From assembly GCA_016291135.1 (NCBI GenBank), contig JAEFAE010000004.1, forward strand, positions 62,001 through 126,000: 64,000 nt of DNA, read 5' to 3'. The position numbers and the translations under genes are program-made. Below, piece by piece: positions 5,990 through 21,261 of the stretch. Source of the DNA: Bacteroidales bacterium (lineage in GTDB: Bacteria; Bacteroidota; Bacteroidia; Bacteroidales; F082). Position 1 is the first letter of the stretch. Each line of letters begins with the position of its first letter. A model generated the notes under the pieces. It did no database searches and was not told the origin of the DNA. It saw nothing but the letters and a program-made list of their open reading frames with translations.

Positions 5990-6390
5990 AGGTAATCCTT
6001 GATTGTAATATTTGGGTTTCATTCCTAATAGGTCACCATACAGGGTTAATTCGGCAGATTTTGAACGATTCCCGTTTTGATGTGGTCGTCTGTGGTGAAT
6101 TGTTAAATGAACTACACGATGTCTGCGCTCGCTCGAAGATCCGGTCACATGTGAGTGAACAGGAATTGGAAGATTTTTTTCATATCATCTATTCCTATGC
6201 TAATATTGTGAATATAAAAGAAGAGGCCGATTATAATATTCGTGATCCGAAAGACCTTTATTTGTTGTCACTGGCGTTAAATGTTGATGCTGGTTTTATT
6301 GTTTCTGGTGATGCCGACATACTTGACGTGAAACAATATGGACATACTACGATGTTGTCTTTGGCAGAATTCAAAGAGCGTTTTTATTAG
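5986..6390 (+). CDS. PIN-domain toxin (putative TA system component)
   Basis: Predicted metal-dependent ribonuclease of 134 residues. The PIN acidic residues are visible: the first Asp in MKVILDCNIWVSFLIG, the second acidic site in ELLNELHDVC, the DPKD segment (NIRDPKDLYLLSLALNVDAG) and the terminal SGDADIL motif. This order is that of the family annotated as putative toxin-antitoxin system toxin component, PIN family. The start ATG overlaps the antitoxin stop (ATGA at 5986-5989), implying translational coupling. No related module is repeated elsewhere in the window. Confidence 0.85.
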   Translation: MKVILDCNIWVSFLIGHHTGLIRQILNDSRFDVVVCGELLNELHDVCARSKIRSHVSEQELEDFFHIIYSYANIVNIKEEADYNIRDPKDLYLLSLALNVDAGFIVSGDADILDVKQYGHTTMLSLAEFKERFY

Positions 6391-6395
6391 TCCTG

Positions 6396-6533
6396 TTAAA
6401 CAATCCATTCCACCAATTCCCGCGGCAGGATGATCTTTTTCGGTTCGCCTCTTTTCCCGGTGATGAAGTAATGGTGGGCATAGATGATGTCGAACTGTTT
6501 GACGAAGGCAAACCCATCCCATTCTCGAGAAAA
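6396..6533 (-). pseudogene. 46-codon gene remnant
   Basis: On the minus strand an open stretch of about 45 codons without its own start codon ends at TAA 6396-6398 and reads FSREWDGFAFVKQFDIIY, then HHYFITGKRGEPKKIILPRE and LVEWIV. The composition looks like the C-terminus of a real protein, and its base composition is richer in GC than the adjacent accessory genes. It is in the same frame as, and immediately follows, the stop codon of the 85-residue gene at 6534. I cannot assign the family. It is most likely the 3' scar of a gene removed by recombination. Confidence 0.4.
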
Positions 6534-6791
6534 TTACAACTCCATAGACGCTTTCAACGCATTAAACCAAGATTCTCTTATGGCTATTTCATAGTCTTTC
6601 TGCTCTCTTGATAGAAGGGGATTGCTTTCAATGTCGCGTTTCATCTTTGCAATGCAAAACTCTAACGTTTCTTTCGCTTGGCCTTTGGTGACAAATCCGC
6701 CGCCAAACAAATTGTATAGGAATTGTGCTGTTCCTTGTGAATGAGCAGTCATCTCTAATTGGTGCATTAGTGCTTTTTCGTTGTCGGTCAT
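6534..6791 (-). CDS. Small hypothetical protein
   Basis: 85-residue, mostly helical, soluble protein with no signal peptide (MTDNEKALMHQLEMTAHSQG...). A conserved-looking centre FLYNLFGGGFVTKGQAKETL and a charged C-terminal helix are visible. No family was recognised. It lies in AT-rich DNA, 39 bp downstream of the HEPN gene on the same strand and could be part of that operon. Its stop is followed in frame by another 45 open codons (6396-6533), so a longer ancestral gene interrupted by a nonsense mutation cannot be excluded. Confidence 0.55.
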   Translation of the reverse strand: MTDNEKALMHQLEMTAHSQGTAQFLYNLFGGGFVTKGQAKETLEFCIAKMKRDIESNPLLSREQKDYEIAIRESWFNALKASMEL

Positions 6792-6830
6792 GTTTAGATT
6801 TCTTTAAAACTATTTGTTGTAATATGATAC

Positions 6831-7607
6831 CTATTGTCTTTTCTTTTCCGAATACCTTAACCAACTATCAAGTGAAATTCTAAACAATTGAAGAGTTTCT
6901 AATCTCATTAACCAATCATTATAACTTTTCTCTTCATCGTCTTTATCAAATGATAATTCGTAATCGCCCTGAAACAATTTGCCCGAATGTGTTATTCTAC
7001 TTCGCAAATTATATATATCTTTATACTTTTTCTGAGATTTTGTACTACCAGCGACAAATTTCGACAAGAAATTAACAAACTTTTGTTTCACCCCCCAAAT
7101 CGGACGTCCACATTGTGGACATGAATACGGTGACGATTCTATTGTTTTACAACTTCCGCAAGCAAAAGTTATTACATTATCATCTTCTTCTAATTCAACA
7201 AGACCTTCAATAGCAGAAATATAGGATAGGAAAGACAAACTACGTTTATTTGAGGAAATATCCATTCCATCACACGCGAGATAAATGCAGGAATTTACTT
7301 TTTTTCTTGTTTCTGAAGAAAGATTGTAATAGTTGTGAAGAGCGGTGTATAGGGTGTTCGGAAAACAAACCTCATGACTGTAATCATCAATGGGATTGTC
7401 AGTAAAGTATTCATGCATCTGCGCTTCTTTAAAAGATGCAGTTGGCTTGAAATCCGTGAACTGTTCTATTTCTAAGTCCTTTTTTAATCCTTGATAGGAA
7501 TAGACTCCCATGAACATACGACTCTCTCTATTATCTATGTTTTGTCTTTCCTCTTCCGTCATATCTTTAGCCATCTTATTTGGCATTTCTATTCCCCATC
7601 CAATCAT
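6831..7607 (-). CDS. HEPN-domain (Apea-like) protein with embedded zinc ribbon
   Basis: 258-residue cytosolic protein. Near the C-terminus the motif LRSRITHSGKLF carries Arg202 and His207, matching the RX4-6H signature of HEPN RNases. The region before it has a zinc ribbon with two CxxC pairs (ACGSCKTIESSPYSCPQCGR). The arrangement and the ITHSG sequence match Apea-like HEPN proteins, which often occur in defence or stress loci. The gene starts at an ATG overlapping the stop of the 94-residue gene upstream (7604-7607). The N-terminus begins in what looks like the middle of a domain (MIGWGIEMPNK), so the two reading frames may be halves of one gene split by a frameshift in a run of T residues. 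Confidence 0.7.
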   Translation of the reverse strand: MIGWGIEMPNKMAKDMTEEERQNIDNRESRMFMGVYSYQGLKKDLEIEQFTDFKPTASFKEAQMHEYFTDNPIDDYSHEVCFPNTLYTALHNYYNLSSETRKKVNSCIYLACDGMDISSNKRSLSFLSYISAIEGLVELEEDDNVITFACGSCKTIESSPYSCPQCGRPIWGVKQKFVNFLSKFVAGSTKSQKKYKDIYNLRSRITHSGKLFQGDYELSFDKDDEEKSYNDWLMRLETLQLFRISLDSWLRYSEKKRQ

Positions 7608-7888
7608 AGAGGTGTTATATTGAAAAACCTATGATTTGTTAAACATGACAGCAGATTAAGTATTTCTTTTTCTTTATTGATTTTAACTGCACCAAGTAAA
7701 AAAAAGTCAGTTGGTTCATCGTTTTGATAGTCAATCGTATATTCGAGAAACATGGGGAAATGGCGAGCGTATGGACTCTTTGGTTTCCCTTCCATATCGA
7801 TGGGGAGAATCTGAAATTTGTCTTCAAATCTGAAACTGGTTTTCAAAATAGAATTCGAAAACACCAATGCTTTATAATACTTTTTCAT
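7604..7888 (-). CDS. Hypothetical protein, possible N-terminal half of the HEPN protein
   Basis: 94 residues (MKKYYKALVFSNSILKTSFR...), cytosolic, alternating strands and helices; contains FPMFLEYTIDYQNDEPTDFF and ends ILNLLSCLTNHRFFNITPL. Apea-like HEPN proteins are commonly about 350 residues long and have a beta-rich N-terminal domain, which is what this piece would supply (94 + 258). The overlap with the next gene is four bases and a run of T residues (AGGTTTTTC on the minus strand) lies just before, where a one-base slip would join the frames. Either translational coupling or a frameshift mutation fits. Confidence 0.5.
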   Translation of the reverse strand: MKKYYKALVFSNSILKTSFRFEDKFQILPIDMEGKPKSPYARHFPMFLEYTIDYQNDEPTDFFLLGAVKINKEKEILNLLSCLTNHRFFNITPL

Positions 7889-7902
7889 TTGATAATCTGG
7901 TT

Positions 7903-9930
7903 TTATTCTTCCACAAGTTTATCCCACAATTCTTTATCAAGCATCTTTTTAAATCTTTCCGTACTTCCTTTTGGAATGAAAATTTGTTGTAAAGAAATAC
8001 AGCCCCCAAAAGCATTACTCCCAATCTCAATACGAGGGTTCTTAATGCTAATTTGTTGTAATGATGTACATTTTCCGAAAGCTTCTTCCCCGATATTTGT
8101 AACCGAACAAGAAATTGTAATATCTAGCAATGAAGAACATTCCACAAAAGCCACCTCACCAATTCTTGTGACTGAATCTGGAATGGTGATTTTTTGCAAG
8201 GATGAACATTCCCTAAAAGTTCCTCCTGCTACGGTTGAAATAGAGTCTGGCAGAGTGATCTGTAGCAAGCTTTTGCAGCTACTAAAAGCGGACCTGCCAA
8301 TGCTTATAATGGAGTCTGGTAGAGTAATTTGCTGCAACGCCGAACAACCACTAAAAGCATAATCGGCAATGCTTATAACCGAGTTGGGGATGGAGATTTG
8401 TTGTAATGACGAACACCCCCAAAAAGTAGAATCGCCAATACTTTTAACCAAATCAGAGATGCTGATTTGTTGCAATGATGAGCACCCCCCAAAGGCCGAT
8501 ACACCTATGCTTATAACTGACCGAGGAATAGTGATAATCCGCAAGGAGGAACATTCAAAAAAAGCCTTGCATTCAATAGTTGTGATAGAGTCTGGTAGGG
8601 TGATCTGTAGCAAGTTTTTACACCCTCGAAAAGCAGAATCGCCAATACTTCTGATAGAGTCTGGTAGGGCGATTTGCTGCAATGACGAACAATCGAAAAA
8701 GGTATAATCGGCAATGGCTGTAACTGAATTAGACATTAAAACTTGTTTCAGAGATGAGCATCCACCAAAAGCACATTTTCCAATTCTCACAACTGAATTG
8801 GGTATTATGATTTGACGCAAAGCTCTACACTGAGCAAATGTGCCATCAGCAATCTCTAAAACTGAATTTGGTATCTTGATTTGTTGCAATGAAAAGCATC
8901 TAAGAAAAGCACTTTCACCCAAAACTGAAACTGTATTTGGTATGATTATTTGCTTTATTGTAGAACACTCTTCAAATGCCTCATTGCAAATTACATACAC
9001 TCTATTTTTTATAGAATATTTTTCAAAATACTTATTCTTACACCTCAGTAATTTTTTCCCATCCTTACTATAGACAACTCCAAATTCATCTTCAACCCAA
9101 TTTTCATTTTTCTCAACAGTTGCCGTTGTTGAAGACTTAATACACGTCAATTTTCCAATAGAAAAACATTGTAATTGTGCTGTCCAAGTCTTGTCTTCAA
9201 TAAGTTCGTTTTTGTCAAACATACCATAGAAACCCTTGTTGCCACCCAGCAATGAGCAGAAAACTTCCATTCGTTCGCTTTTATCGGAAGAACCAAAAAA
9301 TGGCCCTACGCATACAAACTGATTATACCCTTTTAAGCAACCTTTCACCAAGTTGGCGAACTTGTCTATATCGAAGCTTAGCATATCCAACACATTGGAA
9401 AGAATATGCAAAGTAGATGTTTCTTCATCGCAAACAATGTCGTCTTGAGTCAAGTCATCAAACTTTTTGTTCACGGTCTTTATCTTTGCTTCTGGGAAAA
9501 ACACCGAAGCATGTAGCGCTGCGCGTTTCAAACAAATCTTGGAAGGCTCGACTAGAGTAATGGTTCTCACATTTTGTGCATAACCATTGTCGCGAAGATA
9601 ATCTGAATAACACATTGTTCCTAAAGCTTGCCCACAACCATAATCAATGATGTTTATTTCAGATTGCTCAAGGAATTCTTCTGGCAATTTGCCAAAGGCA
9701 TATTCCAGTTTAGCTTGGTGCATTTTGCCGAAAGAAGACATATAGGCGGTCATTTGTGGCTCAGAGTCCAAGATGTCAATACCTCGTTTCAAAGCATCAT
9801 GAAGTTCATCCTGCAAGGCATGTGGCAGTTCGCGGTAGAATTTGGTGGACAAATCCCTCACTTTGTCGAAAGTGGGATTATCCGTGTATTTCAGTTTGTA
9901 GGCGTAGTTGGTGTTTTGCTCAATTATCAT
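7903..9930 (-). CDS. SAM methyltransferase-like domain fused to BspA-type leucine-rich repeats
   Basis: 675 residues with two unrelated parts. Residues ~1-270 look like a class I SAM-dependent methyltransferase: the glycine-rich motif I IIDYGCGQALGTMC, the acidic end of strand beta-2 in TITLVEPSKICLKRAAL, and a motif resembling post-I in LHILSNVLDMLSFD. Residues ~330-660 are about 14 BspA/LRR_5 repeats of 23 residues with the pattern SLQQIxIPxSVxxIGxxAFxxC. There is no signal peptide, whereas most BspA-repeat proteins are surface exposed, so this one should be cytosolic. Its ATG lies two bases after the stop of the DUF1848 gene, so the two are translationally coupled. The substrate is unknown. 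The region is AT-rich compared with flanking core genes, which suggests acquisition. Confidence 0.75.
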   Translation of the reverse strand: MIIEQNTNYAYKLKYTDNPTFDKVRDLSTKFYRELPHALQDELHDALKRGIDILDSEPQMTAYMSSFGKMHQAKLEYAFGKLPEEFLEQSEINIIDYGCGQALGTMCYSDYLRDNGYAQNVRTITLVEPSKICLKRAALHASVFFPEAKIKTVNKKFDDLTQDDIVCDEETSTLHILSNVLDMLSFDIDKFANLVKGCLKGYNQFVCVGPFFGSSDKSERMEVFCSLLGGNKGFYGMFDKNELIEDKTWTAQLQCFSIGKLTCIKSSTTATVEKNENWVEDEFGVVYSKDGKKLLRCKNKYFEKYSIKNRVYVICNEAFEECSTIKQIIIPNTVSVLGESAFLRCFSLQQIKIPNSVLEIADGTFAQCRALRQIIIPNSVVRIGKCAFGGCSSLKQVLMSNSVTAIADYTFFDCSSLQQIALPDSIRSIGDSAFRGCKNLLQITLPDSITTIECKAFFECSSLRIITIPRSVISIGVSAFGGCSSLQQISISDLVKSIGDSTFWGCSSLQQISIPNSVISIADYAFSGCSALQQITLPDSIISIGRSAFSSCKSLLQITLPDSISTVAGGTFRECSSLQKITIPDSVTRIGEVAFVECSSLLDITISCSVTNIGEEAFGKCTSLQQISIKNPRIEIGSNAFGGCISLQQIFIPKGSTERFKKMLDKELWDKLVEE

Positions 9931-9932
9931 AA

Positions 9933-10952
9933 TTAGCCCGTAATTGTTTCTCCCAAAGGATTCGTTTTGTGTTTTCTATAATTCTCAACAGCTTTCTCCT
10001 TGCTTGCATTGGCATAGCAATACTCACACAAATGAGGGCAGGTATTGTACTCGCCGATGTCCTTGCTCATAATGCAGCCGCAGAACTGCCGCTGGCCTTT
10101 GTCGCGGTTGTCGCGGTGCTTGATGATGGTCTTTTCTGGGTTGAAGAGGTCGCCTTCGGTGATCTCCACGCCAAGAAAGTCCATCAAGGTCTTGTCGTGA
10201 GACGCAAAACGAATCATCAGGTCGTCATCGATGCAATGATTGTGCTCCACGCCGTCGAGATTGGCCGCCTCACCACAAGTGGCTAAAGCGTAGTTCCAGC
10301 CTTTCGCTTTGTTCAACTCCACTAACCGTTTGGCAAACTCAAACATCTGCTCCGGCGACCATTCCGAATAATTGATTCTGCTCTTTTCGAGATTGGCTTT
10401 CACCTTTTTATATAAGGCGATGTCGGCATAACTGAAAACGAGTTTTTCCGTGTATTCTTTCAGTTGGTCACCGATAGTTTCCACTTTTCTCAGCAGGTTG
10501 TCAATGCTGATTTGATCGGTCAGAATCAATGGGTCGAAACGCCAAATCACACGGCCTTCACCTAGTTTTTCCACAAACCTTTTGAAGGTGTCAATCCTTT
10601 TCTCCAAAGGCGGAACGCCTTTTTCCAAACCTTCTTTTTCGTAATCGTTTAGGGTGTATTGGATGTAGCAACCGATGTTCCTTTCCTTCAACTCGTCCAA
10701 ATGACCAAGCAACGGCTCTGGGTTCTTCGACCAAAACACGATAAAACGACATTTTTCATACGACACAAAACTTTTCACACCGTTGAAAGGATTGGTCCAA
10801 GCGGAATAGCCCACCTTAAGCCGATGGAAGAACCAATCGGCATAAAATGCGGGAATGTCGGTGCTTCTACTTGCTGAGATAATCACGGGGGCCTGAGCGT
10901 CTGCTGTTTCACCGTTATCCCGATATATTTGTGCCTTTGTCCAAGTCGTCAT
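9933..10952 (-). CDS. DUF1848 family protein (radical-SAM-like, Fe-S cluster)
   Basis: 339-residue cytosolic protein of the DUF1848 family. Characteristic pieces are PVIISASRSTDIPAFYADWF near the N-terminus, FIVFWSKNPEPLL, VIWRFDPLILT and a C-terminal cysteine cluster (FCGCIMSKDIGEYNTCPHLC followed by EYCYANAS) that probably holds an iron-sulfur cluster. The fold resembles a TIM-barrel radical SAM/spore photoproduct lyase-type protein; the reaction is not known. The promoter element TATATTTG sits at 10975-10982. The methyltransferase-LRR gene follows after only two bases, indicating a common function. Confidence 0.85.
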   Translation of the reverse strand: MTTWTKAQIYRDNGETADAQAPVIISASRSTDIPAFYADWFFHRLKVGYSAWTNPFNGVKSFVSYEKCRFIVFWSKNPEPLLGHLDELKERNIGCYIQYTLNDYEKEGLEKGVPPLEKRIDTFKRFVEKLGEGRVIWRFDPLILTDQISIDNLLRKVETIGDQLKEYTEKLVFSYADIALYKKVKANLEKSRINYSEWSPEQMFEFAKRLVELNKAKGWNYALATCGEAANLDGVEHNHCIDDDLMIRFASHDKTLMDFLGVEITEGDLFNPEKTIIKHRDNRDKGQRQFCGCIMSKDIGEYNTCPHLCEYCYANASKEKAVENYRKHKTNPLGETITG

Positions 10953-11629: not shown

Positions 11630-12460
11630 TTATAAAGCTTGTTGTTTTAAAACCTCCGGCAGCCGGTAGCTCGTCTTCGCCTCCATCTCCTTTAAGATGG
11701 CCTTGAAGTCGTCGGGGAGGAGGCCCCAGATGCCGGTGGCGATGGGGCCGGGGATCTCTTTGTAGAAGGCTTCGGCGATGCCGCCGGTGATGCAGGCGAG
11801 GGTGTCGCTGTCGCCACCCAAGGAGACGGCCAGGCGGATCGCCGACTCGAAGTCGGTGCTGTCGAAGAAGGCCACCATGGCCTCGGGCGTCGTGCCTTGG
11901 CAGGAGGAGTCCCATTTATAGACGGGACGGATCTCGTCGCAGGTGCGGTCGAGGTTGTAGCCGTAGCGTTCAGAGATATAGCGGCGGATGGACTCCTTGT
12001 CGCTGCCGTTGCGGGCCATGAAGATGGCGGCTGCCGTCGACTGGGCGCCTTTGATGCCTTCGGGGTGGTTGTGGGTGATGGCGGCAGAGAGGCCGGCCAC
12101 ACGCTTGGTCTCCTCCAAGGTGTCGAACATCCAGCCGTTGGCGCTGGCCCGCATGGAGGCGCCGTTGCCCCATGAGTTATAGGGCTCGCGTTTGCCATCA
12201 CTCTTGAACAGCCAACGGAAGAAGCCGCCGCCATAGCCGCCCATGGGGCAAGGATACTTTCTGGCAAAGCTGATGAAGCTCGCCTCCAAGGTATCCATGC
12301 CGTGGGTGGGATCCTTCAACAGCCATTCGGCCACGGCCATGGTCATGATGCTGTCGTCGGTGTAGTTGCTCTTCTCGGAGAAGAACGGGAAATCCATAGT
12401 CTTTATATTGTTGAATTCATATACCGATCCGGCGGTATCGCCGATGATTGCTCCTAACAT
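11630..12460 (-). CDS. ADP-ribosylglycohydrolase family protein
   Basis: 276-residue cytosolic hydrolase of the DraG/ARH family, which removes ADP-ribose from proteins or small molecules using two Mg ions. Metal-binding motifs are intact: GDTAGSVYEF at the N-terminus, YTDDSIMTMAVAEWLL and the C-terminal SLGGDSDTLACITGGIAEAF. Length and motif order are typical. It lies downstream of a vWA/macro-like gene and a Nudix regulator on the same strand, so three successive genes deal with ADP-ribose-type ligands. The leader contains a 23-bp sequence (12463-12485) that recurs upstream of folA. A strong terminator follows. Confidence 0.9.
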   Translation of the reverse strand: MLGAIIGDTAGSVYEFNNIKTMDFPFFSEKSNYTDDSIMTMAVAEWLLKDPTHGMDTLEASFISFARKYPCPMGGYGGGFFRWLFKSDGKREPYNSWGNGASMRASANGWMFDTLEETKRVAGLSAAITHNHPEGIKGAQSTAAAIFMARNGSDKESIRRYISERYGYNLDRTCDEIRPVYKWDSSCQGTTPEAMVAFFDSTDFESAIRLAVSLGGDSDTLACITGGIAEAFYKEIPGPIATGIWGLLPDDFKAILKEMEAKTSYRLPEVLKQQAL

Positions 12461-12462
12461 AC

Positions 12463-12485
12463 GTTGTTCAGTTAATCAGTTGTTT
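12463..12485 (-). repeat. Leader motif shared with folA
   Basis: A 23-bp sequence containing CAGTTAATCAGTTGTTT lies 2 bp upstream of the ADP-ribosylglycohydrolase ATG and is identical to 48431-48453 upstream of folA, in the same orientation relative to the gene. Confidence 0.6.
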
Positions 12486-12527
12486 GACAGGTGAAATAAG
12501 ATAAAACCAAAGGGCGCTTCAGCCTTC

Positions 12528-13628
12528 TTAGATGATCTGCTCCCAGAAGTCCAAGGGCAGATGGACGTTGGGGAGGTTGGTGGCGGCAGCGAACAGCGGG
12601 GCGATGTCCCGCGGACGGAAGCCGGCAATGCCACAGCCGATGCGGGTCACCAGGAAGGTCATCTCGGGATGGCAGTCGGCGAAGCGGAGAAAGTCATCTA
12701 CGTAGGGCTGGATGGTGTCCACGCCGCCTTGCATGGTGGGGATGGCATAGCTCTGTCCCTGCAGGCCCACGCCTTGGCCCATGATGGCGCCGAAGCGGTC
12801 CACGGCGAGTCGGGCAGCGCCACCGGCGTGCATGCCAGCCAGGTTGCTGCCGAAGACGAAGATCTCGTTGGGTTGTAGCTTGGTGATGCGTTCGGGGGTG
12901 ATGCGGTCCTGGAACTCGGACAGCTCGCGGTAGTTGCGGCTCTCGCGATTCGCCTTGGAACGGAACAGCTTGCGTTCTGCGGCTCCCATGCCAGCCATGC
13001 ACGGGGCAGCCATGGACATGCGGCCGAACATGCTCATCTTGGCCTTGCGTTCTTTTTCCCAAGCCGCCTTCATGCCGGCATCGTCATCCTCAAAGGCGAT
13101 ATGGTTGTCGATGTTGAGCGAGGCGGACACGGCCTCCACGTCTTGGTTGGTGCCGATGTAGGCGAAGTTCCAGCCTTCCTCGTCTTTCATGCGTTCCACG
13201 AGGGCCTTGATGGCGGCGCCGCTGTATTCACGAGAGGCGTTTTCCATGCCGTCGGTGATGACGGTGACGGCGGCAGTGGCATCTTCCTTGTCTTTGATGT
13301 CCTTGTACAAGGCGTTGATGGAGAGCCCCATGGCATCAAACAAAGGGGTGTTGCAGCAGGGACGGTAATCGCGCGAAGTCAGTTCTTTGACCTCGTTGAC
13401 GGGCACCTTGTCATAGACCATGGTCTTTTCACATCCGCAGAAAAGCATCAGCGACACGAAATGCTCCTGGGTGTCTTTGAAACGCTCCTGGGCGGAACGG
13501 ATGCCGCCGACGGTCTCGTTGAATCCCGAGATGGCGGCCTTGGCGATGCTGCTCATGGATCCGCTCTTGTCGAGGATGATCAGGTTGTAAATCTGGGTCT
13601 TGTTTTTGTTTTCAGGGTTTGTTTTCAT
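12528..13628 (-). CDS. von Willebrand A domain fused to a macro-like domain
   Basis: 366 residues. Residues ~10-185 are a vWA domain with an intact MIDAS (LIILDKSGSMSSIAKAAISG, then the CCNTPLFDAM threonine and VITDGMENAS aspartate). After a linker that is rich in Met and Ala, residues ~245-366 contain NEIFVFGSNLAGMHAGGAAR, GVGLQGQSYAIPTMQGG and TFLVTRIGCGIAGFRPRDIA, the pattern of a macro-like, potentially ADP-ribose-binding domain. No signal peptide, so cytosolic. The macro-like part next to an ADP-ribosylglycohydrolase and an NrtR-type Nudix protein suggests a role in ADP-ribose metabolism or signalling. Fusion of these two domains is unusual to my knowledge. Confidence 0.75.
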   Translation of the reverse strand: MKTNPENKNKTQIYNLIILDKSGSMSSIAKAAISGFNETVGGIRSAQERFKDTQEHFVSLMLFCGCEKTMVYDKVPVNEVKELTSRDYRPCCNTPLFDAMGLSINALYKDIKDKEDATAAVTVITDGMENASREYSGAAIKALVERMKDEEGWNFAYIGTNQDVEAVSASLNIDNHIAFEDDDAGMKAAWEKERKAKMSMFGRMSMAAPCMAGMGAAERKLFRSKANRESRNYRELSEFQDRITPERITKLQPNEIFVFGSNLAGMHAGGAARLAVDRFGAIMGQGVGLQGQSYAIPTMQGGVDTIQPYVDDFLRFADCHPEMTFLVTRIGCGIAGFRPRDIAPLFAAATNLPNVHLPLDFWEQII

Positions 13629-13675
13629 AATCTTTAGATTTTTTATTAGTTAAAGAAAAACGTTGGTTCTTTGTT

Positions 13676-13727
13676 CCAGGGGTTTTCAACCCCGTACTTA
13701 CCGACAGGGCACCCCTAAGGGGTGCGG
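13676..13727. repeat. Palindromic intergenic repeat
   Basis: Contains CAGGGGTTTTCAACCCC and the family core (TACCGACAGGGCACCCC, then TAAGGGGTGC). It begins at the base after the stop codon of the Nudix gene and ends about 50 bp before the vWA gene. Confidence 0.8.
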
Positions 13728-14558
13728 TCAAAATTCCAGTCTGAAGTTCTTGTCTTCCTTCAGCCGCTCGTACCGCTCTTTGTTGAAAGAGAACTTGGTG
13801 CCTTTGCGGCGGCGGGGCTCTTCGGGGGTGGGGGCTGCCGAGAGGGCGGGCAGGGGCATGTCTTGCTGTCCTCCGCCGAAGAGGGCGTCGATGCTCATGG
13901 AGCGCATCTCGTTGCGTTCCCCGAAATAACAAGGCGCACGCTCCTCGAGGGCATCTTCAGGCGCTTCGTCCGCTTCCTCCAAGATGCCGGTCTGGAGCAT
14001 CTTCTTGTAGAAGTTGCGGCGGTCGAAATGGACGCCCAGGATCGACTCATAGAGGCGTTGTAGCTCGGGCATGGTGAACTGTTCGTCCAACAACCCGAAG
14101 CCGATGGGCTCGAAGTGGATGTCTTTCTTCAGCTGCTCGGTGGCCTTGCGCAGGATGTAGTCGTGGTCGAACGCCAAAGGAGGGACGTCCTCGATGGGGA
14201 ACCACTGGGCCTTGGCGGCGTCGTCGCCCCCTTGCACATACGACTTCCGGGCCGGGGCATAAAAGGCGATGGTGATGACGCGCTCGCGGGGATCGCGGTT
14301 CACGGCGGTGAAAGTACCGAACTGTTTCAGGTACTCGAGCTTCAAGCCGGTCTCTTCGCACAATTCGCGCATGGCCCCTTGTTCGGCCGTCTCGTCGATG
14401 TTCATGAAACCACCAGGGAAAGCCCAGCAACCTTTGAAAGGCTCGCCACCTCTTTCTATTAATAAGATGTTCAGACGCTTGCCGTCGAAGCCAAACACCA
14501 CGCAGTCGGTTGTGACCGCAGGGTGTGGATATTTGTAACAATAGTTCCCTTTTTCCAT
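13728..14558 (-). CDS. Nudix hydrolase with NrtR-type winged-helix domain
   Basis: 276 residues from the ATG at 14558. The Nudix box is complete (GGFMNIDETAEQGAMRELCE followed by ETGL), so hydrolysis of an ADP-ribose-like substrate is possible. The C-terminal half has the winged helix of NrtR-type regulators (ELQRLYESILGVHFDRRNFY, then KKMLQTGILEE), followed by a ~60-residue low-complexity extension. NrtR proteins bind DNA and release it on binding ADP-ribose or related effectors. Two palindromes with TGTAA/TTACA arms lie at 14564-14586 and 14615-14629, so the gene is likely autoregulated. Downstream on the same strand are the vWA-macro and ADP-ribosylglycohydrolase genes. The longer in-frame start at 14606 would cross the operator and is not favoured. 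Confidence 0.85.
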   Translation of the reverse strand: MEKGNYCYKYPHPAVTTDCVVFGFDGKRLNILLIERGGEPFKGCWAFPGGFMNIDETAEQGAMRELCEETGLKLEYLKQFGTFTAVNRDPRERVITIAFYAPARKSYVQGGDDAAKAQWFPIEDVPPLAFDHDYILRKATEQLKKDIHFEPIGFGLLDEQFTMPELQRLYESILGVHFDRRNFYKKMLQTGILEEADEAPEDALEERAPCYFGERNEMRSMSIDALFGGGQQDMPLPALSAAPTPEEPRRRKGTKFSFNKERYERLKEDKNFRLEF

Positions 14559-14563
14559 AATTG

Positions 14564-14586
14564 TGTAAATTTGACGCAAAATTACA
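14564..14586. promoter_or_regulatory. Imperfect palindrome over the Nudix regulator promoter (putative operator)
   Basis: Arms TGTAAATTT (14564-14572) and AAAATTACA (14578-14586), 8 of 9 pairing, separated by 5 bp. It overlaps the -7 box (TAATTTTG on the minus strand, 14577-14584) and ends 5 bp from the ATG, the expected position for repression. Confidence 0.55.
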
Positions 14587-14614
14587 ACAATTTTTGGAAC
14601 CTGCAAGTATTTTT

Positions 14615-17353: not shown

Positions 17354-17797
17354 ATGAAGATAAAATACAAACAGCAAGTAATACCAAGGTCGGATCTCCC
17401 TGATATTTGGAAAGGAGTTAAGTTGCAACAGCTTCGTCTATTACTCTTCTCTTTTTTAAAAAACACCTATTCCGGAAAAGTAGTCGAAAACCTGGATACT
17501 GGTTTGCCAATTAAGATCTCAGTAACATCAGCGAGAAAAACAGCTTTTGGAGAAGCGATCTATTTAAAAAAAGCTGCTGCTGCGCTTGTGTTGACTGACA
17601 TTATCAAATACGCCCAATATAACAATTGGGGAAATCCAAAAGTGACTGACGGACCGAATATAATTGGTTATTTGAACTTTAAGTGCAAGTGTATCATTGA
17701 TGGTAAGATGGAAAACATCCGGTTGGCAGTTCAGTTTCAGAAAGGAGGAAAGTACTATTATAACATTGAAATTAACAAGAAGAAAGCCCACACTTGA
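17354..17797 (+). CDS. Hypothetical protein, possibly LPD3-like polyvalent-protein domain
   Basis: 147 residues, basic, soluble (MKIKYKQQVIPRSDLPDIWK...). The core VVENLDTGLPIKISVTSARK, a helix with LKKAAAALVLTDIIKYAQY, a strand containing IIGYLNFKCKCIIDGKMENI and the final GGKYYYNIEINKKK resemble the LPD3 or barnase/EndoU/RelE-like domains of large phage and conjugative polyvalent proteins. That is only a resemblance. The gene is strikingly AT-rich compared with the helicase and transporter on either side, stands alone, and has its own promoter, so it is probably acquired. A -7-like element on the opposite strand lies just downstream. Confidence 0.55.
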   Translation: MKIKYKQQVIPRSDLPDIWKGVKLQQLRLLLFSFLKNTYSGKVVENLDTGLPIKISVTSARKTAFGEAIYLKKAAAALVLTDIIKYAQYNNWGNPKVTDGPNIIGYLNFKCKCIIDGKMENIRLAVQFQKGGKYYYNIEINKKKAHT

Positions 17798-19357: not shown

Positions 19358-19365
19358 CAAAGTTA
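19358..19365 (-). promoter_or_regulatory. -7 element for the fatty acid transporter
   Basis: TAACTTTG on the minus strand, 70 bp before the ATG at 19288 and overlapping the end of the reverse transcriptase gene. Confidence 0.5.
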
Positions 19366-20568
19366 CAACTGTTTTTTGAATTCCCAAAATGCATGGACCA
19401 GGCTTTGATATCCCAAGGCCTTCAGCTGTGCATACGAGGTCCGGTAGTTGGCCTTGCCATGCCTTCCCGTAGCCAGGTAACGCAGCTGCTGTTGCAGGTA
19501 GCGGTCGATGGCGTTCATCCCATCTGTACAGGTGAGCATGGGGAAGTACCATCGTGCCCAGGTCAATACCTCGGCGTCTTCGCTCTCGAAGAACTTGCGG
19601 TTGAAATACCGGATCAGGGCTTTCATGGCGTCTTCAGCGGCGACGCCCTTGCGGCTTCTCCAACGCATCAGGGCTTTGGCTTGGCGCCGGATCTTGCCTT
19701 TCATCTTTTGGATGGAGGCGCTGGCGATGTCGATGTCGTGGCCATGGCAACGGAAACCCAGAAACTCGTAGGGCTCGTTGGGCGTGAAGATCCGTTCCTT
19801 GTCGGGGTTGACTTCCAACCCGAGCTCGGCGAGAAAAGCAAGCAAGGTGGCTTTGTGCTGCAACAGGGTTGTTTCGTCGGGAGCGAACAGGATGATGTCG
19901 TCGGAGTAGCGGGCATACACGACGCCGGCCTCATGGAAGTGGTGGTCGACGGTACTCAGATAGACGTCGGCGAGGAAGGGGGCGGTGGGGGTGCCGGCCA
20001 TGATGCCGTGGTCCTCCTCGATAACCATGCCTTGATAGACGACCCGGCGCTCCGTTAGCATCCGTTCGAAGAAAGCGTAAAGAGGTGGATCGTCGGCAAG
20101 CAGCGCCTGCAGCATGGGAAGGAGTTGGGCGATGGGGATGCTGTTGAAGTAGTTGTGGATGTCGAGCTTATAGGCCCACATCGGCTGTCCATGGAGGGAA
20201 CGGTTCACCTGTCGGAGGGCATCGTGTGCGTCCAGACCACGACGGAAGGCATAGCAGTTGGGGGCAAAACGGTCGTCGTAGCGGTAGAGGAGGTGGGCGA
20301 GGAGTTTGAGTAGCTTCATGGTGTCGTCATCGTAGCGATAGACGACGCGTTTCTTGTCCGAGCCCATCTTGTTGACCAACAGTTTCTCGGGCAGTCCCAA
20401 GCCATCGCCGCGGATGATCTGCTCGGCCAAAGGAAGATACTGCTCTTCTGCAACGAAGCGGTCGGCCTCGTCGAATTCGTGCCAATTGAATCGGCCCTTG
20501 CGGAGACGATAGGCGAGAAACGACTCCCAAGCCTCTTGGCTGCCCAGTTGATCGATGATGCGCTCCAT
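19363..20568 (-). CDS. Stand-alone reverse transcriptase (group II-like / unassigned group)
   Basis: 401-residue RNA-directed DNA polymerase. Palm motifs are intact: motif A with Asp136 in YKLDIHNYFNSIP, motif B HGIMAGTPTAPFLADVYL, and motif C YARYSDDIILFA with catalytic Asp223-Asp224, followed by EFLGFRCHGHDIDI. The fingers contain NCYAFRRGLDAHDALRQV, as in group II intron-type RTs. The C-terminus has a thumb-like helical domain ending RYLATGRHGKANYRTSYAQL. It lacks the retron NAxxH and VTG motifs and has no maturase-HNH endonuclease, and I see no intron domain V downstream, so it is not a standard intron or canonical retron. The ATG at 20568 was chosen over a TTG at 20607, which lies inside the structured leader. 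A 136-nt non-coding element with a perfect inverted repeat precedes it. GC content is like the core genome. Confidence 0.9.
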   Translation of the reverse strand: MERIIDQLGSQEAWESFLAYRLRKGRFNWHEFDEADRFVAEEQYLPLAEQIIRGDGLGLPEKLLVNKMGSDKKRVVYRYDDDTMKLLKLLAHLLYRYDDRFAPNCYAFRRGLDAHDALRQVNRSLHGQPMWAYKLDIHNYFNSIPIAQLLPMLQALLADDPPLYAFFERMLTERRVVYQGMVIEEDHGIMAGTPTAPFLADVYLSTVDHHFHEAGVVYARYSDDIILFAPDETTLLQHKATLLAFLAELGLEVNPDKERIFTPNEPYEFLGFRCHGHDIDIASASIQKMKGKIRRQAKALMRWRSRKGVAAEDAMKALIRYFNRKFFESEDAEVLTWARWYFPMLTCTDGMNAIDRYLQQQLRYLATGRHGKANYRTSYAQLKALGYQSLVHAFWEFKKQL

Positions 20569-20576
20569 GGCGAAAA

Positions 20577-20712
20577 AAGAAAAAGGGGACTGATTTTGAA
20601 TTCGCAAAATTGCGATTCACGAGAGGGTACAGGGTCGGGTCGCCTGCAAGACCTGATGATCGACCATGCTGCCTCCGTCGCAGGCGCAGCAATGCTGCAT
20701 CCCCTTTTTCTT
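20577..20712 (-). ncRNA. Candidate structured ncRNA bounded by an inverted repeat, upstream of the reverse transcriptase
   Basis: The gap between the 179-residue gene and the RT is flanked by a perfect 13-bp inverted repeat: 20700-20712 (AAGAAAAAGGGGA on the minus strand) and 20577-20589. Inside are a long-range 7-bp stem (CGCCTGC 20680-20686 with GCAGGCG 20641-20647), a hairpin GCAGCA-T-TGCTGC near the 5' end and a strong hairpin TCGCAA-TT-TTGCGA near the 3' end (20602-20615). The 3' arm of the repeat ends 8 nt before the RT ATG. This geometry is like the a1/a2 repeats of retron msr-msd and like the ncRNAs adjacent to defence RTs. That it is transcribed and used by the RT is inference. Confidence 0.5.
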
Positions 20713-20721
20713 GTTTTGTTG

Positions 20722-21261
20722 TCAGATACCGAACCGGTGGATACGGTCGATGACGTAGCCCCGTTCGTTGGGCATCTGGGTGTAGAAGTTGATGTACGGC
20801 AGGTTCATCTTCTGTGCGTACTTCCTGGCGATCAGGTACTTCACTTTACAGTCGTGACTGTGACCGTCGCCCAACATCACGACGCCCCGAGGGACGCCGG
20901 CTTGATAAAGCACGAAGGTGTAAGGCTCGCCCCATTCGGCTTGATAGACCTGACGCGGACGGGTTTTGTAGAGCTGGAACTCATCGCCGACGTAGCCTGC
21001 GAGATCCGGAACGGGCACGTGCTCCATGAATGTATATTGGGAGAATTCCGTCTGAAGAATCTCACGGAAATAGGCGACCCATTGTGCTTCGGTGCGATAG
21101 ACTGGCGTCGGCTCGGATTCCTGTTGCCAGGGCTTCGGCGAAGGCTGTTCGGCGGCTTGTGAAGGCTGTCCGGACTGTTTCTGGTCGAGTTCCCTGACGG
21201 TTTCCTTGACCGTGCTCTTGAGTTCCCTCACAACGTTTTTGAGGATGTTTTGCCAACCCAT
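20722..21261 (-). CDS. Conserved hypothetical protein upstream of the reverse transcriptase
   Basis: 179-residue cytosolic protein. The N-terminal ~30 residues form an amphipathic helix rich in Lys and Glu (LKNVVRELKSTVKETVREL), followed by a Gln/Pro/Ser linker to about residue 60. The C-terminal globular domain contains YTFVLYQAGVPRGVVMLGDG, a conserved-looking HSHDCKVKYLIARKYAQ and a final NFYTQMPNERGYVIDRI. The strand-helix order resembles a degenerate PD-(D/E)XK nuclease-like fold, but a full catalytic set is not evident. It lies 10 bp upstream of the inverted repeat of the putative ncRNA and on the same strand as the RT, so the three could be one unit. It could equally be an unrelated housekeeping gene. 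Confidence 0.6.
   Translation of the reverse strand: MGWQNILKNVVRELKSTVKETVRELDQKQSGQPSQAAEQPSPKPWQQESEPTPVYRTEAQWVAYFREILQTEFSQYTFMEHVPVPDLAGYVGDEFQLYKTRPRQVYQAEWGEPYTFVLYQAGVPRGVVMLGDGHSHDCKVKYLIARKYAQKMNLPYINFYTQMPNERGYVIDRIHRFGI

Follow-up and report, generated by a model that had tools for sequence, protein, structure and literature searches.

The window, the whole 64-kb stretch of DNA analysed here, belongs to a bacterium whose relatives are ruminant-gut dwellers, and carries on its minus strand a cassette in the order partner gene (21261–20722), non-coding RNA (ncRNA; 20712–20577) and reverse transcriptase (RT; 20568–19363). The original prediction described this RT as stand-alone, which is refuted because a conserved partner gene (20722–21261, minus strand) lies 5′ of the RNA and ends 9 nt before the 13-bp arm of an inverted repeat. 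The interval 19363–20712, given earlier for RT and leader, holds both, with the RT itself (401 aa) running only from 20568 to 19363 on the minus strand. The features, all on the minus strand, are:

20722–21261 (−), partner gene, 179 aa: N-terminal stretch, low-complexity linker and conserved ~100-aa C-terminal domain (iterated HMM)
20577–20712 (−), whole conserved ncRNA, ~136 nt: RT-5 (20587–20689) plus P1, P2 and a pseudoknot (RF03026, covariance model R1, covariation)
20700–20712 (−), P1 5′ strand (upstream arm); 10 of 11 counted pairs changed on both sides, 11 of the 13 pairs being counted
20686–20698 (−), P2 hairpin GCAGC-AUU-GCUGC; both sides changed in 5 of 5 pairs
20680–20685 (−), pseudoknot 5′ strand GCCUGC, pairing with 20642–20647 in 96.8% of cells; both sides changed in 4 of 6 pairs
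20621–20677 (−), P3, long helix enclosing P3b (20650–20653 with 20638–20641); P3 10 of 13 and P3b 4 of 4 pairs changed on both sides
20642–20647 (−), pseudoknot 3′ strand GCAGGC, in the P3b loop (covariation)
20602–20615 (−), P4, last hairpin and candidate template boundary; 5 of 5 pairs changed on both sides, 74.4% of cells paired
20590–20599 (−), candidate template loop 5′-UCAAAAUCAG-3′, between P4 and the P1 3′ strand; invariant UCAAA, putatively templating
20577–20589 (−), P1 3′ strand (downstream arm), pairing with 20700–20712; ends 8 nt before the RT ATG
19363–20568 (−), UG26-class RT, 401 aa, YSDD active site (PADLOC, Pfam, alignment)

The RT is a full-length best match to the PADLOC profile RT_UG26 (PDLC03764; 1.8e-158, 525.5 bits, residues 3–399 of 401), compared with 1.5e-33 (114.4 bits) for the runner-up PADLOC profile and 89.5 bits for the UG17 profile; it also matches Pfam RVT_1 (8.4e-26). 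UG26 was likewise the top profile for all eight divergent relatives tested (1.7e-149 to 2e-108), for which the next-ranked profiles were UG17 (the DRT10 class), UG27, UG4 and a general RT model, and the profiles lying near UG26 RTs include UG17, Drt9 and Drt3a. By profile, on which the class assignment rests, the RT belongs to the catalogued class UG26 and is not a retron RT. A motif check bore out the earlier statement that it lacks NAxxH and VTG, which are retron RT motifs, and carries YAFR and AGTPTAP; YSDD is present as well. Each of the NAxxH and VTG patterns occurs in one of the 21 rows of our RT alignment (A1), neither of them in the window's row. The host genome (2.62 Mb, 83% complete) holds a single RVT_1 match and a single copy of the RNA. 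A group II intron RT was considered and rejected, with no Rfam intron match in the window and a TIGR04416 score of 115 bits against a cut-off of 300.

As predicted, the inverted repeat is perfect over 13 bp, its arms (20577–20589 and 20700–20712) being exact reverse complements, and the coordinates confirm that the former ends 8 nt upstream of the RT ATG; the repeat can be extended to 17 nt at 94% (16 of 17 bp). No 13-bp repeat arose in 500 dinucleotide shuffles of the 153-nt intergenic stretch, the longest being 11, and the RNA strand folds at −57.6 kcal/mol versus −38.6 in shuffles (z −4.99, 0 of 200 as good). The inner 103 nt match Rfam RF03026 ('RT-5') over the full model length at 86 bits, against a cut-off of 45.7, and RT-5 is the sole Rfam match at its cut-off within the 64-kb window. 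By this match the window RNA is a member of RF03026 and the leader is already catalogued as RT-5; with the RT in a catalogued class too, the earlier suggestion that the system was possibly undescribed is not supported. The Rfam structure, at 104 nt, lacks the P1, P2 and pseudoknot found here; among divergent members, L065 and L069 score below its cut-off and L066 and L068 are missed. Our own covariance model, R1, scores the window RNA at 150.8 bits.

For comparative analysis, 51 RNAs were extracted (the window, L020 and 49 other loci), of which 43 were distinct and 38 remained at 93% identity; 37 were aligned with MAFFT from sequence only, structure not being used. The one left out, L039, has a short duplication near P2, between it and the pseudoknot strand; R1 still matches this RNA, at 145.9 bits. 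In the alignment, 89.5% of cells were paired, compared with 71.7% in shuffles and 44–50% when partners were slid by 1–3 columns, a control that somewhat favours the structure because it was derived from the window's row and the Rfam consensus. Changes on both sides occurred in 38 of 44 pairs, compared with 26.5 in shuffles (0 of 500 as high), counted over 37 related RNAs, so that pair changes are not independent events. RNAalifold recovered P1, P2, P3 and P3b from the same alignment (33 pairs, 31 with double changes) and did not return P4, which appears to be aligned out of register in a distant clade. The outermost P3 pair is unsupported: 26 of 37 rows, including the window's, leave it unpaired. 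Most of the distant clade forms the pseudoknot from GCUUUC/GAAAGC or GCCUUC/GAAGGC, not GCCUGC/GCAGGC. The 7-bp long-range stem noted earlier is real, but by the comparative structure it is this pseudoknot, with its 3′ strand in the P3b loop.

R1, built from alignment A2, was run over 59 sources and matched 55, including the 36 that helped to build it, whose matches are by construction. The RNA was present for 55 of 57 full-length UG26 loci (with redundancy between collections), at RT identities down to 30%; in 54 it lay in the locus and in one genome (G211) ~3 kb upstream (L020). The 53 matched loci other than the window and L020 represent 44 distinct RNA sequences. Two RNAs outside the alignment (L072, L074) were then found by R1 at 96 bits each, both being close to the aligned L063. 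L071, which starts at a contig edge, was not judged for the RNA, and L070, a 213-aa RT fragment, was not counted. A full-length UG26 gene (L078; G954:C206) showed no such RNA in the ~690 nt available upstream, and its RT is perhaps served by an RNA in trans. Another UG26 copy (L071) lies in the same genome, at the edge of a contig. The fragment L070 (G387:C23) is perhaps a decayed second copy, an intact one lying elsewhere in that genome.

Among UG26 relatives on genome contigs, RT-5 was above its cut-off in 15 of 15, including one from Bacillota at 38% identity (50.3 bits). In an order-wide draw of 393 genomes, the RT occurred in 11 and RF03026 in seven (six over cut-off), all seven within the 11; a more sensitive Rfam scan of the four RT-only genomes placed L067 above the cut-off (48.1 bits) and L069 just below it (41.8), and L066 and L068, with no Rfam match, have the same architecture. 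Beside UG26 RTs the leader is both conserved and covarying, as judged by pair counts and not R-scape, the outer stem and the pseudoknot bearing on this point most directly; therefore the original prediction, for which a leader without conservation or covariation was the named refutation, stands in proposing an RT–ncRNA system other than a canonical retron. Comparison across loci shows that a conserved RNA accompanies UG26 RTs, built from a long stem that closes it, a core with a pseudoknot and one last hairpin.

The RT occurs in 24 of 173 genomes of the window's family, all of one genus, in 10 of 18 genomes of another family and in all three genomes of the family holding the distant clade L067–L069. 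A phylum-wide draw at E ≤ 1e-50 returned a single genome of 395, the window's own. Full-length UG26 was absent from the matching phage and plasmid records, 0 of 4 and 0 of 13 of which cover 80% of the RT, and a scan of viral contigs with the RT alignment gave only two weak relatives. UG26 has been reported from cold-seep viruses in the available text of PMC10504277.

With an iterated HMM grown from the window's 179-aa protein, we found that 46 of 58 loci have a partner homologue immediately 5′ of the RNA; apart from the window, partner, RNA and RT follow in this order on one strand in 45 of 45, with 0–29 nt between partner and RNA model. Four of the 12 partner-negative loci are cut by contig ends (L016, L037, L054, L071), one is the fragment L070, and for another, L061, the partner adjoins the RNA in L020 (homologues also occur in L018–L020). 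In the remaining six, L065–L069 and L078, the partner is absent as far as the locus shows (~400 nt upstream in L066, ~690 nt in L078). At E ≤ 0.05, 23 of 32 partner members match the PADLOC profile RTasCOG2852 (best 3.1e-8, the window's own 3e-4), which, judging by its name, stands for 'RT-associated COG2852'. COG2852 is presumably an endonuclease family; no conserved acidic catalytic pattern is visible in the partner alignment (A3), and we therefore do not call the partner an active nuclease. Searches of Pfam, NCBIfam and PDB gave no relative of value. None of the 32 partner proteins matches SLATT in Pfam, NCBIfam or PADLOC; a UG17 control locus shows SLATT_5. In the distant clade, UG26 and its RNA lie, without the partner, beside an alanine-racemase-N (YggS-like) gene (L067 and L069, by Pfam), and in L067 a lysine exporter, LysO, also adjoins them.

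Apart from the cassette and frames lying antisense to it, no ORF of the flanks was common to more than 7 of 33 loci, about half of which have ~1.5 kb of flank, indicating that the cassette sits at several different chromosomal sites. PADLOC applied to nine window proteins gave just three matches, to the RT, more weakly to the partner and, 8.4 kb away, to a DUF1848 protein, and so no wider defence island was seen among these nine. The DUF1848 gene (9933–10952, minus strand) matches RTasDUF1848, an RT-associated profile, at 1.8e-39. Several other features of the window are recorded here as observations. A block of low GC content at 6000–10000 (0.34–0.40, compared with mostly 0.5–0.6 elsewhere) encodes a BspA-type leucine-rich-repeat protein, with a PIN-domain ORF at its edge, and is perhaps acquired DNA. 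An ADP-ribosylglycohydrolase, an ORF without a Pfam match (12528–13628) and a NUDIX/NrtR regulator stand in a row at 11630–14606 (minus strand); an ORF common to L014, L053 and L055 near UG26 resembles, by eye, that at 12528–13628. A small ORF at 17354–17797 (plus strand), beyond a fatty-acid transporter gene from the RT, carries the large polyvalent protein-associated domain LPD3. Domains of the LPD3 type are usual on mobile elements.

Between P4 and P1, all 37 RNAs have a loop that opens with UCAAA and continues with 4–5 variable nucleotides, 10 nt long in 30 and 9 nt in seven. A defence-associated RT (DRT) system of similar layout is DRT10, which consists of a UG17 RT, a SLATT protein and an ncRNA whose central stem is decorated by hairpins; its template loop directly follows hairpin SL5, thought to set the 5′ boundary, and carries an A–B–A′ repeat for realignment (all from the available text of PMC12632851). 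The UG26 cassette shares the three-part layout. Its RNA is also closed by a long stem, is decorated with hairpins and has a loop that follows the last of them, with UCAAA where DRT10 has its template; the likeness, drawn from that text and from the fold of a DRT10-class locus (L081), is one of layout only. It differs in RT class (UG26, not UG17), in a partner that is not SLATT and in the invariant UCAAA, whereas the DRT10 template loop is described there as poorly conserved. The A–B–A′ signature, too, is weakly supported in the UG26 loop. A–A′ repeats averaged 2.97 nt, compared with 2.61 when downstream segments were shuffled (p 0.0034) and 2.83 when segments were swapped between lineages (p 0.079); 36 of 37 RNAs had a repeat of 2 nt or more and 21 of 37 one of 3 nt or more, two-letter repeats being common by chance. 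UC recurs exactly 10 nt downstream in 28 of 37 (shuffle mean 6.3, maximum 17), but this downstream UC also starts P1, and P1 pairing alone could therefore explain its recurrence.

We compared the two RNA types directly using five UG17–SLATT loci, four plasmid-borne and one genomic (L079, L081–L084), taking the DRT10-class RNA as the stretch upstream of SLATT, as in the available text of PMC12632851. R1 with filters off gave no significant match in the five loci (best E 1.2, in the wrong place; E 1.3 at the candidate RNA position in L081), and Rfam gave none up to E 0.1. L081 folds into hairpins and a tail loop together with a closing stem of 13 bp (z −2.83), the closing stem of L082 is comparable (z −3.87) and L083 has no clear fold (z −1.20, 23 of 200 shuffles as good). 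The resemblance between UG26 and DRT10 is one of layout, and descent is not implied. A conserved short loop motif is also shared with DRT9, where it is poly-U (PMC12632851, available text), and with DRT3a, where it is ACACAC (PMC13174585, available text), the motif of the UG26 RNA differing as UCAAA. A DRT9-like poly-U template was rejected, the loop being UCAAA plus 4–5 variable nucleotides in 37 of 37; U runs lie beside it only in some rows (L051 and the group made up of L062–L064 and L075–L077). A DRT3-like reading was also rejected: DRT3 needs two RTs, whereas the 83%-complete genome has one RVT_1 match and no second RT (Drt3b).

Four other accounts of the RNA were weighed. That it is a cis-regulatory leader of the RT mRNA and not a working part of the enzyme fits its position, the R1 match ending within 174 nt of the RT in 42 of 45 loci and the window's stem arm 8 nt before the start codon. 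In L016 and L066, however, a strong terminator-type hairpin and U run follow the RNA; L063 and L072 have comparable hairpins there, ahead of an extra gene, but their U runs are shorter or broken (z −5.0 to −7.6 for the four hairpins). The RT lies 536–637 nt away in the other three of the 45 loci, and in G211 (L020 1471–1625 and L061) partner and RNA are followed by trkA, trkH (both by Pfam) and, 3 kb from the RNA, the RT, so that partner and RNA stay together and the RT can part from them. Judged by these hairpins and this gene order, the RNA is separable from the RT, and a leader detached from its gene would not be expected to keep its structure; we regard the leader account as unlikely. Retron-like synthesis, with the 13-bp repeat as a1/a2, the RNA as msr-msd and branched msDNA as product, would likewise explain an inverted repeat that bounds a structured RNA beside an RT. 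We consider it very improbable, given an RT without NAxxH and VTG that scores 525 bits against UG26 but 48.9 against a retron St85 RT model (cut-off 235), RT-5 as the window's only Rfam match, and a closing stem that encloses a pseudoknotted core.

The closing stem and pseudoknot also resemble the pseudoknotted RNA of DRT2 (PMC12039810, available text), raising the idea that copying runs around the closed ends of the RNA and yields a concatemer in which a toxic open frame arises. We joined copies of the P1-enclosed RNA end to end, a choice of unit boundary that could alter the outcome, and found stop-free stretches of at least two units in 15–19 of 37 RNAs per strand, compared with shuffle means of 5–9, an excess that ignores relatedness and conserved stop-free segments. 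Neither strand stood out, and across three choices of unit ends the frame was endless on either strand in only 6–9 of 37; because a functional frame should be near-universal, we set the DRT2-like account aside as improbable. A minor possibility is that the RNA is only a scaffold and the RT makes untemplated or protein-templated DNA, as known in other UG RTs (PMC12632851 and PMC13213688, available text), with UCAAA as a protein-binding site. Against this, Class 2 DRTs are described as RNA-templated in the available text of PMC13174585, and the profiles near UG26 include UG17, Drt9 and Drt3a, a proximity that does not imply UG26's own membership of Class 2.

The reading we prefer, at a probability of roughly 0.55, is that RT, RNA and partner form a system of the defence-associated RT type in which the RNA would serve as both scaffold and template. 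The cassette would then have three working parts: a small partner protein, a structured ncRNA of ~136 nt and the UG26 RT. The RT would bind the RNA as its scaffold and copy the loop between P4 and P1, P4 acting as the 5′ boundary in a DRT10- or telomerase-like manner. Because support for A–A′ is weak and its UC is shared with P1, we infer templating at the loop as the leading interpretation and treat repeat addition as possible. If the UC at the loop's 5′ end and the UC starting P1′ do act as A and A′, the window system would write CTGATTTTGA repeats and, on the same assumption, its relatives repeats containing TTTGA. A phage signal may alter the amount or fate of the DNA written, and the partner might, as a guess, help to execute or restrain the response; the putative anti-phage role is carried over from the RT class. 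More tentatively, and on balance doubtfully, UG26 could be a further bacterial telomerase-like writer, with a pseudoknotted RNA whose short, closed template loop is bounded by a hairpin, that produces ~10-nt repeats containing TTTGA, (CTGATTTTGA)n here, and uses a non-SLATT partner as effector or regulator.

DRT2, DRT3 and DRT9 are UG members with ncRNAs, according to the available text of an article citing Mestre et al. (EMBO J 2025, PMC12489045), and UG17 was added as an ncRNA-bearing class by the DRT10 preprint (PMC12632851, available text). We file the present system as a variant of such ncRNA-bearing defence-associated RTs that is neither DRT10 nor a retron. UG26 is not named in the available text of the DRT papers searched (PMC12632851, PMC13174585, PMC12489045) or of the myRT paper, and the literature searched for RF03026, RT-5, UG26 and COG2852 yielded no paper describing the RNA–RT pair and neither a function nor a cDNA product for UG26; a link between RT-5 and the class may already have been made by Mestre et al. 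2022 or Weinberg et al. 2017. No RNA or mechanism is attached to UG26 in the literature searched, to which the present analysis adds a candidate partner.

Here RT-5 is tied to UG26, its structure is completed by a closing stem and a pseudoknot, and one candidate template loop is named. An orphan RNA, with no described job in the literature searched, and an orphan RT class become one testable machine, and the pair is, on comparative grounds, probably an RNA-based DNA-writing machine of the anti-virus kind. G211 offers a natural separation useful for asking whether the RNA acts in trans. If repeats are written, the system would enlarge the group of bacterial systems related to telomerase-like synthesis and would show whether that mechanism depends on a SLATT partner.
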